From Prorocentrum cordatum (Eukaryota > Sar > Dinophyceae > Prorocentrales > Prorocentraceae): 64,000 nt of DNA. Positions 13,901 through 38,848 of the stretch are shown here, piece after piece. The notes below the pieces were generated by a model. It searched no databases. It had not been told where the DNA came from and saw only the letters and a list, made by a program, of their open reading frames with translations. Each line of letters opens with the position of its first letter. Within the stretch, counting starts at the first letter, position 1. The position numbers and the translations under genes were made by a program. The DNA is taken from NCBI GenBank assembly GCA_963575745.1, contig CAUYUJ010016059.1, positions 488,849-552,848 on the forward strand, in the 5' to 3' direction.

Positions 13901-15009
13901 CTAGTCACGGTGCGGCCTCTGCTCCCCTCCCCGGGGCCATCCTGATGACCCGCGGTGCCCTGACGGGGCCATCTCCCGCGTCGCCTCGTTGGCCCGGCGG
14001 AAGCCCTGGGTCTCGTGCACGTACCTCACGCCATTGTAGTGCACCGGGCCCATCACCCCTGCGTCGCAAAACGTCCTCTGCGGCTGCTTGGGAGGCTTGT
14101 GCACCTTGGGCGTCTGCTGCGCGGCGGCCTGCTGCACGGCTGGCCCCTGCCTACCCTCGTCCTCCTTGGCCATCTTGCAGCAGCAGCCACCAATCACCCC
14201 GATGCCTGCTGCAAGCAGCACTGCGATCGTGGCACCCACCTTCATCGCCGTTTCCACCGGGACAATGATCGCCACCGTACCCATCTGCGGCTCCCAGCGA
14301 AGCATGGCCCCCTGGGCCTTGCCGTCAACAGTCGCCACTTCTCGGCTCTGCACCTCTCCGGCTGCTGTCGTGAGCGCCGTCGCCACCAGCGCTGCGCACA
14401 GCATGCCTGCGCAGGGGGCGCGGATCCTGCAGCTGCTGCCGCGCCTGCGGGCCGCTCCTCTGCGCCTTCGCTGCTGCTCGCGCCGCCATGCAGCGCTCAG
14501 CAGCACGGCTGCCAGTAGTACCCCCGCCGCCATCGCCCAAGCTCCCAAGCCGACCGGGGGCGCGAGGATCAACAGATTCTGACTCTCCACCGGGCTGACC
14601 TTGAGCACGTAGCCGTCTGCGCTGCCAGCCGTAGCGGCGAGCGTCGTCATGGTCAGCGCTGCTTTGGGCCAAAGCGGGGTCGGGCTCCTGCCTGCCCGGC
14701 GCGCGCCCTCGGCCCCATGGGCCGGCGGCGCCGTGAGCTCGGACACATCCGTCGCCATGTTGGTCGAGATGCCGCGCATGGGCTCGTGGCTCTCCCACAG
14801 GTACCCGTGGAAGCTATCGGAGGCCCAGCGCCCGAAGCGCTTGACGCGCTGCAAGTCGTCCACGGCGTGGTACATCGCTGTCGCGCCCCCGATGCGGAGG
14901 CTGTGCGAGCCGATCTCCTCCTTCCGCAGCCCGGCGGCAAGCCCTGCGATCGTCAGGTAGCGCTGCACCTCCTCGCGACGGATGGGCGCTCCGCTCGCCC
15001 AGCGGAAGA
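13901..15009 (-). CDS. Tyrosine recombinase, C-terminal half, with hydrophobic tail
   Basis: This is the downstream half of the element's integrase, cut off from its N-terminal half (37,912-38,848) by the 22.9-kb insert. It reads FRWASGAPIRREEVQRYL, then HSLRIGGATAMYH, with catalytic His at codon 14,903-14,905 and Arg at 14,894-14,896. GRWASDSFHGYLWES follows, with the probable nucleophilic Tyr at codon 14,801-14,803. The Arg-His-Arg-Tyr set is completed by Arg in the other half. After the Tyr the frame stays open for about 300 residues, far longer than a usual recombinase tail. That tail has three hydrophobic stretches (near 14,505-14,580, 14,360-14,415 and 14,195-14,275), the last ending in Cys-Cys-Cys and a charged tail. 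This suggests a membrane-anchored extension of unknown role. The frame has no start of its own and cannot make a full enzyme while split. Confidence 0.8.
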
Positions 15010-15041
15010 CCCTGACATCGGGCCGTTGCAATTTAATTGGG
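15010..15041 (+). repeat. Terminal inverted repeat, 15.0-kb end of the TIR element
   Basis: Starts CCCTGACATC, continues GGG, then CCGTTGCAATTTAATTGGG. Compared with the other end read on the minus strand, the differences are two bases in the GGG block and one T/A. Confidence 0.85.
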
Positions 15042-15242
15042 GCGGCCCTGATGTATTGATTTTTGGGTTCAACTTTGATTTTTTATTTCGGATATTTCGG
15101 CTGGGTGTTGAACGACCTCACGATGTATCTAGTTTTAACGTATACGGTGCGCCAATGTGCCATATATGTGCCATATATGTGCCAATGTGCCAATGTACTA
15201 ATGTGCCAATGTGACTGTTAGGTGTATATAGATTTGTGTGTG

Positions 15243-15265
15243 CATATATATATATATATATGTAT
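15243..15265. repeat. TA microsatellite
   Basis: A short TA run inside an AT-rich 300-bp stretch next to the TIR. The repeated phrase ATATGTGCCA occurs near 15,162-15,184. Confidence 0.85.
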
Positions 15266-15609
15266 ACTGGAATATGTATATATATAGGTGCTTACTTACG
15301 TATGTATACATGTGCGTGCGTTACTAGGCTCTCTCCCCGCCTCGAGGTCCTCCTCGAGCCTCTCTCTCTTTGGGGGGCGCGCGCGAGAGCTGGCTGCTCG
15401 CGGCTCGAGCGCGCGGGCGCGCGCCCCAGAGGGCGCAGGCCCCGCGCGGGCGCGCCCGCGCGCGCGCCGTGCGCGCGCGAGCCGCGCAGGCCCGCCCCTC
15501 CCGCGGAGCAGCGCCGCACGGAGGCGCGGGGGGAGAGAGGGGGCGGGCGGGTTCGTTCGTGAGCTCTGGCACGCTTGAAAACGTACCACTTGATCTTTTC
15601 GGCGCCCAG

Positions 15610-15681
15610 GTGCCTCGGGGGCGGTCGTGCCAGAACTCACGGGCGCGCGAGGTACATCGGCACGACCGCCCCGAGGCACAT
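15610..15681. repeat. Inverted repeat, 21-22 bp arms, about 27-bp loop
   Basis: GTGCCTCGGGGGCGGTCGTGCC-like sequence at about 15,610-15,631 is mirrored by GGCACGACCGCCCCGAGGCAC at about 15,660-15,680, with one C missing. Such a stem would fold in RNA or single-stranded DNA. It lies about 230 bp before the first clear exon-like island. Confidence 0.8.
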
Positions 15682-15909
15682 GGACGCCGAAGAGCAACTG
15701 GCGCAGAACATCGACATCGCGTGCGATCGCGCAGGGGTGCCTGTGTGGTGCCCAGAGGACCTCCTCTTCCTCCGCCCCTCCTCCTCCAGAGTCCCAATCT
15801 TGACTCCTCCTCCTCCTCCTCCTCCTCCTCCTCCTCCTCCTCCTCCTCCCCCTCCTCCTCCTCACCCTCCTTTTGCTCATCGTGCTCGATGTTCTCCCCC
15901 CTCCTATAG

Positions 15910-16016
15910 GACGTCCCTCGGCCGCGTGTCCTGTCGGACCACACACAGCCCGAGTTCGGCCGGCCGCCCAAGAAGCTCTGCAGGGCGGCTCGCAGGGAAT
16001 TCGCGTGGCGATATCG
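15910..16016 (+). CDS. Exon-like island with AG and GT borders (gene A)
   Basis: The 107 bases after CTATAG and before GTGCCA read in one frame as DVPRPRVLSDHTQPEFGRPP and on to EFAWRYR, rich in Arg and Lys. The flanks are CTC-repeat DNA upstream and another pyrimidine-rich stretch downstream, so the island stands out in composition. Confidence 0.45.
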
Positions 16017-37073: not shown

Positions 37074-37125
37074 AGCCTCCTCCTCTTCCTCCTCCTCCTC
37101 CTCCTCCTCCTCCTCTTTCCCTCGC
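37074..37125. repeat. CTC trinucleotide repeat
   Basis: CTCCTC run. A second block lies at 37,200-37,265. Confidence 0.9.
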
Positions 37126-37274
37126 CTGCTCTCCATCCCCCCCCCCCCTCCCGCCCCACCCCTCCCTGACAAGTGTACGCAAATTCAAAGTGTGATCCTC
37201 CACCACCCTCCTCGTCCACCACCCTCCTCCTCCTCCTCCTCCTCTTCTTCCTCCGTCCCCTCCTCCTGTACCGT

Positions 37275-37535
37275 CATTAATCATACTCTCCATCATCACA
37301 ATAATCATTATCATCAGTACACCACCACCGCCACATCACCACCATCATCATCATCAGCATGTGCATCATCATCACCATCACATTACCACTCACCACGTGC
37401 CATTAACAGCAGCAGCGCCATCATCACCACCACCAGCACCAGCACCATCACCATCATCATCATAATCAGCAGCAGCATCACCATCATCATCATCATCATC
37501 ATCATCATCATCATCATCATCATCATCATCTCACC
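37275..37535. repeat. ATC trinucleotide repeat
   Basis: ATCATC with CACC variants, purest at 37,455-37,532. Confidence 0.95.
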
Positions 37536-37556
37536 ATTACCTATCACGACACATCA

Positions 37557-37694
37557 TGGCGTCAGCGTGGCTGACCACGGACGGGCGCCTGGGCAAACTC
37601 CCGCGCGCCCGCCCCGAACCCCTCACGCGGATCGGGCCCTTCAACCCCTCGCAAGCTACTCCCGCGGAACGCTGCGTGGTGTGCCAGGCCTGAA
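37557..37694 (+). CDS. Small open reading frame, possibly a terminal exon
   Basis: ATG to TGA, 45 codons, starting MASAWLTTDGRLGKLPRARP and ending ERCVVCQA. It directly follows the ATC repeat and looks coding in composition. No family recognised. It could also be the last exon of a longer gene. Confidence 0.25.
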
Positions 37695-37787
37695 CAGAAA
37701 GCATCTCCGCACCGTGAACTGGTAGCGGAATGTCTTGTTTGTAAAGTACCAATGCCTTGTGGATATATCGCTAGCTGCCAATGCTGT

Positions 37788-37911
37788 CTGACATCGGTCG
37801 ATATCCCCACGTCCCAATTTTTAATTTCGGTACCAATTTTTCAGCTTGTCTTGATTTTTTTTGAAACAGCTAGCAACGTCCCAATTTAATTGCAACGGGC
37901 AGATGTCAGGG
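37788..37911. repeat. Short unit with its own inverted ends beside the TIR
   Basis: CTGACATCGG at 37,788-37,797 mirrors CAGATGTCAG at 37,901-37,910, framing 124 bp. Inside, ACGTCCCAATTT occurs twice (about 37,809 and 37,876). These may be subterminal repeats of the large element or a nested miniature element. Confidence 0.5.
37880..37911 (-). repeat. Terminal inverted repeat, 37.9-kb end of the TIR element
   Basis: Read on minus it is CCCTGACATC, TGC, CCGTTGCAATTAAATTGGG, matching the 15,010 end at 29 of 32 bases. The TGA inside it stops the truncated recombinase frame. Confidence 0.85.
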
Positions 37912-38848
37912 GAGTGGGAGCTCCTCCTCGCTCCCCCGCAGCCTCTGCGGGTAGTGCCGCTCCAGCTGGCGGAGTGCTGCCACGGGGCACAATGATGTGC
38001 CCGTCTCGTACTGGTTCCGTACGCACCCCACGTTGTACTGGTCGGTCTTCGAGGAGGTGATGTGGAGCACCGCCTCCACCGCGTCCTTGAAGGCACAGGG
38101 CTTGTTGTCGCCACTGCGGCCCGTGACGTCCACTCCACGCACAACGCGCTCTCGACTCCATGTCTTCCCGGGCTGGACCAGGTACTCGGACGCCCTCAAC
38201 ATGAAGAAGAAGGCCACCGCCACGGCGGCCCACAGGACAGCGGTGTCCGCCTCAGGGAGGTCCGACTGGTCCTTCAGGAAGCCCTGAAGCCACAGGAGCA
38301 TACGAGGCGTCACTGGCCGCTTCCTCCCGTCGGCCTCTCCGGAGGCCGGCGAGCGTGGACCAAAGACGGCCTCGGTGGAGTAGAGGATCTGGGTACCCGA
38401 CCACGAGGTGGGCGAAGCGCACTGCGAACAACTTCTGTTTTACCGTACCCTCCGTGCGCTTCAGCACCTTAGCCAACACGATGACGAAGCCCAACAGTGC
38501 CTCCTCGTTGGCGTGTCGCTCCTCGCGGTCGCGTCCCTCCAGCCAGGGCGACTCCCCTTGGGCTGCTCTGAAGCTCTGCCACTGCTTCCAGCCGGTCTCG
38601 TAGCCAGCGCGGGTTCCCTCGGACAGTCGCAGCATCAGCGCCTCACGCTTCTGCTCCTCGATCCACCGGCCGTAGTCGCCCCCTCCCAGCATCGGGTGGT
38701 CCGGCAGGGCGATGGAGGCACGAGCGCGGCCCAGGGCGACCGGCTTGACCAGGCCCTGGGTCTCCACCTTCTTGCCCCGGTTGGGGCTCTTCTTCCGCCG
38801 CTTCTTGGGGGTGTTGACGACTGCGTCCAGGTCCACCTCCTCCGCGTC
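37912..38848 (-). CDS. Tyrosine recombinase, N-terminal half, interrupted
   Basis: After a Lys/Arg-rich leader (TPKKRRKKSPNRGKK near 38,790), LSEGTRAGYETGWKQWQSF begins the helical core-binding domain (38,620-38,345). The catalytic domain starts near 38,330. FFFMLRASEYL carries the first catalytic Arg (codon 38,194-38,196), and the frame runs to EEELPL at the TIR insert. The His, second Arg and Tyr lie in 13,901-15,009. Two frame changes are needed: one at the C8 run (38,849-38,856) to enter from Pol, and one near 38,320-38,345 back to the Pol frame. The enzyme would join the circular DNA copy to the target. Confidence 0.8.

Follow-up and report, generated by a model that had tools for sequence, protein, structure and literature searches.

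A giant terminal-inverted-repeat transposon with a RAG1-like predicted transposase fold in the dinoflagellate Prorocentrum cordatum

The genomes of dinoflagellates are very large, and the classification of their transposons is poor. Here we analyse a stretch of 64,000 nucleotides from Prorocentrum cordatum (contig CAUYUJ010016059.1 of assembly GCA_963575745.1; hereafter the window), in which the gene of a tyrosine recombinase (YR) is split by an element of 22,902 bp. The element proper is a giant DNA transposon with terminal inverted repeats (TIRs) and a member of what we term family I. Very probably, it represents one copy of a giant, structurally autonomous cut-and-paste transposon which belongs to a family of related elements of about 18-25 kb. 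A preliminary description of the window had proposed a giant TIR element of the cut-and-paste type that contains a transposase, and the ends, the target-site duplication (TSD), the empty sites and the other copies all support this proposal.

Ends, empty sites and copies of the insert

The left end of the insert, CCCTGACATCGGGCCGTTGCAATTTAATTGGGGCG, was aligned with the reverse complement of its right end (15010-15044 against 37911-37877). They match at 31 of 35 positions without gaps; 29 matches over 32 bp had been given previously. Directly outside both ends stands a duplicated GA on the + strand, i.e., the TC of the coding strand already noted in the preliminary description. A scan of the whole window for ungapped inverted pairs of 35 bp with at least 31 matches returned 13,179 pairs, overlapping positions counted apart; the only one with a left copy that survives a low-complexity filter is 15010/37911.

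The host-genome assembly that was searched comprises 4.128 Gb in 21,875 contigs. The 500 bases to the right of the insert (37914-38413) yielded 40 scored matches including the window, from 234 candidates. Of the 39 other scored copies of the host element, 15 were inspected over 400 bases spanning the junction. In all 15 the left flank continues into the right flank uninterrupted with a single GA, and ELPLFRWASG is read in one frame; thus, the predicted empty site is real. One of these copies (C14655) is 100% identical to the window over the compared flanks (300 bases left, 102 bases right). The earlier claims that the recombinase is split exactly and that removal of the insert restores ELPLFRWASG are borne out by these copies. 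An intact YR copy deviating from the predicted empty site had been named as what would refute the proposal; the 15 intact copies carry the predicted site. The window recombinase has an additional frame change near 38340. Because over 37914-38413 the window is 8 bases shorter than most of the other copies listed, the gene is probably broken at this second place as well, independently of the insert, with the missing bases presumably lying near that position.

A genome search with the element end, allowing up to two mismatches, gave 149 matches versus 12 for the reversed pattern; about 100 of the 149 were listed. As had been suggested, such a search uncovered other copies of the insert. By exact end pairs, full family I copies measure 22,996 bp (C6925), 25,363 bp (C16233) and 40,252 bp (C15574), next to the 22,902 bp of the window. 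Seven one-ended copies bring the total to eleven among the matches listed. Each of the other three full copies is colinear with that of the window, except for stretches unaligned by blastn (e.g., insert positions 133-804) and, in C16233, a run of 100 N. Their TSDs are TA, CT and GA; adding the GA of the window, 4 of 4 full copies carry a 2-bp duplication. C15574 owes its length to an extra segment of about 17 kb, adjoined by (CT)n on both sides and without a clear TIR, which may be a nested insertion or a misjoin.

The right 7 kb of eight copies diverge by 0.3-2.2%. The left 7 kb fall into two types about 12-14% apart, with 0.5-3.2% divergence within a type. Since the right parts are alike and the left parts come in two diverged types, the copies are mosaics. 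The low divergence among copies points to recent movement. Two further places were set aside: C3604 (L027), chosen for an end with a single mismatch, showed no strong likeness to the insert of the window, and C3935 (L028) matched it over about 1 kb only, at 81%.

Transposase, ORF1 and the shared end signature

The transposase gene has two exons separated by an intron of the dinoflagellate type (GA..AG|G). By our reading, the family II transposase has an intron with matching signals at the matching place. The window copy is frameshifted; intact copies exist in the genome, with an open frame of 603 amino acids (aa). In a 20-row alignment the residues of the DDE (Asp-Asp-Glu) triad are conserved, among the rows that have a residue there, in 12 of 13 (first D), 16 of 16 (second D) and 11 of 11 (E), the assignment of the second D to RADLLE being our own. 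Between the second D and the E lie C(2)C and H(3-4)H, with C in 16/16 and 15/15 rows and H in 10/13 and 10/11. Structure comparison of a model indicates a RAG1-like predicted fold. Searches of Pfam with four transposase sequences returned no family at E <= 10. The insert had been described as carrying a CACTA-like transposase. This holds in a broad sense, as motifs and fold place the enzyme in the CACTA/Transib/RAG1 clade; it does not hold for the ends, which are CCC..GGG, or for the duplication of 2 bp.

With its own transposase frameshifted, the window copy could move only with transposase from another copy. C13797 has the identical short deletion, and for this reason mobilisation in trans of an already broken window copy was considered. 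This idea is weak: the right 7 kb of the window are closest to C8069 (0.33%), which lacks the deletion, and gene conversion or recurrence is as likely to account for the shared deletion. A transposase fragment (P0002) which is 67-68% identical is labelled Pyramimonas sp., a green alga, in EukProt, by horizontal transfer or contamination.

A genome search for the transposase led from 6059 first-look candidates to 73 scored places, i.e., at least 73 relatives, the window's own broken copy excluded. At 42 of the 73 a match to a second gene of the insert, open reading frame 1 (ORF1), precedes the transposase on the same strand, at a distance of 8.9-13.9 kb (median 9.5 kb); within 30 kb of the 73 places no other arrangement of ORF1 was found. 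Sorted by transposase identity, ORF1 is present at 3 of 7 places (>=95%), 9 of 13 (70-76%), 12 of 13 (60-67%) and 18 of 40 (50-58%). The conserved ORF1 domain by itself has 103 genome matches from 150 candidates scored, and in an alignment of 16 such domains R, E, W and Q are kept in all rows. Compared with three copies of left-end type B, the ratio of nonsynonymous to synonymous substitution rates (dN/dS) of ORF1 is 0.26, 0.26 and 0.34 as a whole and 0.18-0.20 in the domain. By position and composition, a basic linker and a small conserved domain, ORF1 may be a DNA-binding partner of the transposase.

The ends are not restricted to family I. Family II includes 18.9-kb elements at C481 and C7745 with ends CCCTCACATC.. 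and TSDs AC and GA (2 bp in 2 of 2). Between copies of family II, and likewise within four other families, homology ends 0-3 bases from a CCCT end. The 8 ends compared share the decamer CCCTSWCATC, 9 bases, and CAATTWAATTG; the last of these is the centre of a more extended palindrome, in which 7 to 11 of 11 pairs match outwards. This exact bipartite signature has 94 matches in the genome versus 0 for the reversed control, and is usable as a search tag for annotating dinoflagellate genomes. As many as 52 of the 94 ends form 26 inward-facing pairs of 11,526 to 25,534 bp (median about 20.2 kb; none below 10 kb). A transposase match is contained in 24 of these pairs, an ORF1 match in 23 and both in 22, the window being counted by its own transposase exon. 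Because the ends of families I-VI served to build the signature, its matches in those families are not independent of it; pairing, sizes and gene content do not depend on it.

A family III pattern has 12 ends, nine of them exact. On the six contigs where a family III transposase is listed, all exact ends are downstream of it; therefore, the left end of family III differs. For families III-VI the right flanks predict TSDs of TA (C8557), AG (C11113), AC (C3547) and AT (C13758). For a family at 54% identity no right end was found within the 4 kb fetched, and homology ran to the edge of this segment. Many ends of the form CCCTGAGATC(C/T)GGGCGTTGCAATT (e.g., C465:61365, C892:181288) belong to a related but different end family.

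Remaining sequence and the host retroelement

The insert contains 243 open reading frames of at least 60 aa, 98 of them non-repetitive. A Pfam search at E <= 0.01 with 78 insert sequences (ORF1 and 77 of the 98) returned nothing convincing, the sole weak match being DUF7725 (E 0.006). In these sequences and the transposase no match was found to the Polinton/Maverick markers, a family B DNA polymerase and a retroviral-type integrase. A scan for low dN/dS flags ORF1 and other short windows, e.g., at 18799-18933 (in both comparisons), 25360-25773, 26781-26915 and 29366-29526. Comparison of families I and II reveals non-repetitive likeness beyond TIR, ORF1 and transposase in three short pieces. 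In translated form and without linking, it recovers the transposase exons and two of these pieces among many repeat matches. The tblastx E-values of this comparison are inflated by repeats: at E <= 0.05 a reversed control produced 272 matches, with 4e-8 as the best value. The five best control matches fall at about 36.2-36.5 kb of the window, where many real repeat-like matches lie as well. As the three pieces are non-repetitive, colinear and on the same strand as ORF1 and transposase, we consider them probable exons that may belong to a third gene. Their recurrence in the related family II favours exons of the element itself. The preliminary description had spoken of exon islands of host type. 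The GA..AG|G intron and the three pieces agree with exons as such; the attribution to the host is the less likely one. In the about 19.7 kb outside of the ORF1 exon and the transposase, only these three exon-like pieces were found. All features are collected in Table 1.

Table 1. Positions of the insert, its genes and the interrupted host element in the window
Feature	Position	Strand	Evidence and remarks
Giant TIR DNA transposon, family I copy	15010..37911	+	TIR, 2-bp TSD, colinear full copies, empty sites
TSD GA, left copy	15008..15009		Sequence, host paralogues
TSD GA, right copy	37912..37913		Sequence, host paralogues
Left TIR	15010..15044	+	Terminal decamer 15010-15019, 9-bp spacer, AT-rich palindrome core 15029-15039
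Right TIR	37877..37911	-	Terminal decamer 37902-37911, 9-bp spacer, palindrome core 37882-37892
Candidate short exon (QY.QQKGRKPT..GHR), possibly upstream in the ORF1 gene	19645..19749	+	tblastx against family II without linking: 48.6% over 35 aa, E 4e-8
ORF1, terminal exon	21351..22271	+	Lys/Ala-rich and acidic linkers, then conserved C-terminal domain 21912-22268 (about 119 residues)
Candidate short exon	28768..28917	+	tblastx against family II without linking: 40% over 50 aa, E 1.5e-8
Candidate short exon (PW(L/M)KPF..QGKSA)	31441..31554	+	44.7% over 38 aa (tblastx, linked list) and 78.6% over 56 bp (blastn) with family II
Transposase exon 1, 62 aa, presumed start codon	33345..33530	+	74% over 23 aa with family II; likeness to relative P0005 by eye
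Transposase intron, 233 bp, GA..AG|G	33531..33763	+	Sequence signals
Transposase exon 2 with DDE core	33764..35570	+	Frame broken near 34620 by a short deletion in the window copy
Host tyrosine recombinase, N-terminal part, cut by insertion	37914..38923	-	Additional frame change near 38340
Host tyrosine recombinase, C-terminal part and downstream open frame	13901..15007	-	Phage_integrase E 3e-4, below Pfam cut-off
Host retroelement with split direct repeats	12558..51820	-	About 16.4 kb without insert

The insert was said to sit inside a retroelement. This is supported, and the host is a tyrosine-recombinase retroelement. Its direct repeats are A1 (51657-51820) and A2 (12850-13013), 164 bp and 100% identical, and B1 (13007-13213) and B2 (12558-12764), 207 bp and 98.6% identical. 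The order A1-B1-A2-B2 is the split-direct-repeat layout which we take to be that of Ngaro/PAT-like YR retroelements. At 38635-51885 on the - strand are open frames of 1568 and 2847 aa, in the same frame and with one stop codon between them; the first of the two has hydrophobic stretches. A Pfam search with both frames gave no match at E <= 1; by motifs, stretches of the second presumably resemble a cytosine-5 methyltransferase, a reverse transcriptase and an RNase H. A search of Rfam over 11000-53000 had no match at gathering thresholds, and a PDB sequence search had none of relevance. Within the insert large (GAT)n and (ATC)n arrays (16754-17729 and 18972-19257) form imperfect inverted repeats of about 300 bp which are about 71% complementary, and at 150-882 of the window a 275-bp unit is repeated in tandem 2.7 times.

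Weighing of the explanations and known systems

Several observations weigh against reading the insert as one copy of a structurally autonomous transposon. Seven of the eleven family I copies among the matches listed are one-ended; four of them end at a contig edge and three without explanation. Further, 42 of the 94 ends with the signature have no partner, 2 of the 26 pairs are without a transposase match in the scored list and one pair spans just 11.5 kb. The structural alignments with RAG1 have root-mean-square deviations of 6.0-7.5 Å and identities of at most 13%. Helical models can reach high Z scores by a common arrangement, as the tool itself warns, and HzTransib (8.6) is near that level. 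The copies are too similar for a selection test of the transposase frame, and the windows flagged over the end of the transposase are in other frames. ORF1 is open in 4 and broken in 3 of 7 family I copies, and its dN/dS within left-end type A is uneven (0.12, 0.70 and undefined) with few changes. There is no ORF1 match near 31 of the 73 transposase places (lost, too diverged or cut by contig ends). Pfam had no convincing match for 16 members of the ORF1 domain (best 0.004, for 2 of the 16). No public homologue of ORF1 was found among 8000 candidates scored, where the lysine-rich linker may have crowded out others. The basis of the reading is sequence comparison and a predicted fold.

The insert might be a giant introner, spliced out of the recombinase mRNA at its ends so that the gene still works. 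According to the account in PMC10666404 introns with terminal inverted repeats are enriched in Prorocentrum cordatum, with 23.8% GA donors and 79.7% AGG acceptors, and the ends of the insert contain GA (CCCT|GA) and AG (CAG|GG). However, by our reading splicing at the terminal GA/AG leaves 8 extra bases and shifts the frame, donors further inside keep an in-frame TGA, and the recombinase is apparently frameshifted elsewhere as well. An insert of 23 kb with its own transposase is also unlike the short, non-autonomous introners, and we consider this explanation highly improbable. An assembly chimera or a segmental duplication instead of transposition is the least credible of all. Repeats and microsatellites are abundant and the extra 17 kb of C15574 between (CT)n could indeed be a misjoin, yet four full copies each possess their own 2-bp duplication, homology ends at the element ends and 15 of 15 sites are empty. 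Slightly better placed, though still improbable, is a gene-carrying element of the Starship, Pack or Polinton kind with captured host or viral genes. Large size and the three exon-like pieces outside ORF1 and transposase would suit it, and further short exons are possible. Against this, 78 insert sequences produced one Pfam match (E 0.006), and that to a domain of unknown function (DUF), and the three pieces recur in family II with order and strand kept, as expected of element genes. The earlier claim that the insert carries genes, in the sense of recognisable captured host genes, is not supported by the 78 sequences searched. A literature search on giant DNA transposons with cargo genes in eukaryotes returned no paper.

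Far more weight is due to the question of whether ORF1 is a partner of the transposase at all. It could be a hitch-hiking gene or an anti-silencing factor, as the 31 of 73 places without ORF1 and its broken frame in 3 of 7 family I copies might suggest. Order, strand and similar spacing are, however, kept across transposases 50-100% alike, and dN/dS is 0.26-0.34 between left-end types. We consider a passenger or anti-silencing role the less probable one, yet a serious contender; no result obtained here contradicts anti-silencing.

In the cut-and-paste transposon that we favour, the transposase would bind both bipartite ends, i.e., decamer, 9-bp spacer and AT-rich palindrome, probably helped by ORF1, and would excise the element by double-strand cuts. 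Joining to target DNA with a 2-bp stagger would produce the 2-bp duplication after repair. Here, its target was the recombinase gene of a YR retroelement with split direct repeats, and the insertion divided this gene in two.

The family is defined by its ends and TSD, by empty sites, by intact frames of the transposase and by an accessory gene that recurs; therefore, its activity is directly testable. About 20 kb can evidently be a recurrent size of a cut-and-paste element with little recognisable coding sequence. A RAG1-type enzyme is used by immune cells for shuffling antibody genes. The elements add a lineage outside animals with a RAG1-like predicted transposase fold and a bipartite end signal, which bears on the origin of RAG-type systems and their partners. 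A bolder view would be that of an undescribed, superfamily-level lineage of giant (about 20 kb) dinoflagellate transposons in which an end resembling a recombination signal sequence (decamer, fixed 9-bp spacer, AT-rich palindrome) is read by a RAG1-fold transposase with ORF1 as obligate partner. It would be a natural counterpart of RAG1-RAG2 with an origin outside animals, and would have had a major and recent part in shaping a 4-Gb protist genome. Presently, this is speculation which we regard as rather unlikely.

RAG1/ProtoRAG and Transib have a TSD of 5 bp versus 2 bp in the insert. They differ further in sequence (at most 13% identity), and a RAG2-like protein was not identified in the insert. 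No published description of the insert family was found in the literature searched; Repbase was outside that search. The soybean element Tgmt* has CACTA ends and a TSD which differ from those of the insert. Described in PMC2613891 as a putative autonomous CACTA element of 20.5 kb, Tgmt* shares with the insert a similar size, a disrupted gene and a transposase, to which is added in Tgmt* a described DNA-binding function. It differs by its tnp2/TNP1 domains, unmatched here, and here ORF1 lies about 10 kb from the transposase. Enlarged En/Spm families of 16-20 kb are cited in PMC6431247 for the red alga Chondrus crispus. Set side by side by description, they are likewise giant CACTA-clade elements of an alga, yet are described with 4-5 open reading frames. 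Thus, size alone is not new (PMC2613891, PMC6431247). Dinoflagellate introners share inverted repeats at their ends and a similar host; as presented in PMC10666404 and PMC7789003 they are introns or non-autonomous, whereas splicing of the insert at its terminal GA/AG would not be clean.

The closest frame is the CMCT clade, which by the account in PMC12730594 unites EnSpm/CACTA, Mirage, Chapaev, Transib, Plavaka, ESTA and Lanisha, with TSDs of 2-5 bp and mostly 5'-CA..TG-3' termini. Shared with this clade are a DDE transposase with C(2)C and H(3-4)H between the second D and the last E, a RAG1/Transib-like predicted fold and a TSD of 2 bp, within its range. Different are the ends, CCC..GGG instead of CA..TG in the 8 ends compared, the lack of a Pfam match and the giant layout with an ORF1 of no recognised family. 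EnSpm/CACTA proper is set apart by CAC..GTG termini and a 3-bp TSD (PMC12730594) and by a recognised Pfam transposase profile, none of which is seen here. The element possesses the motifs, the fold and the TSD range of the CMCT clade, though not its usual termini, and is distinct from EnSpm/CACTA proper.

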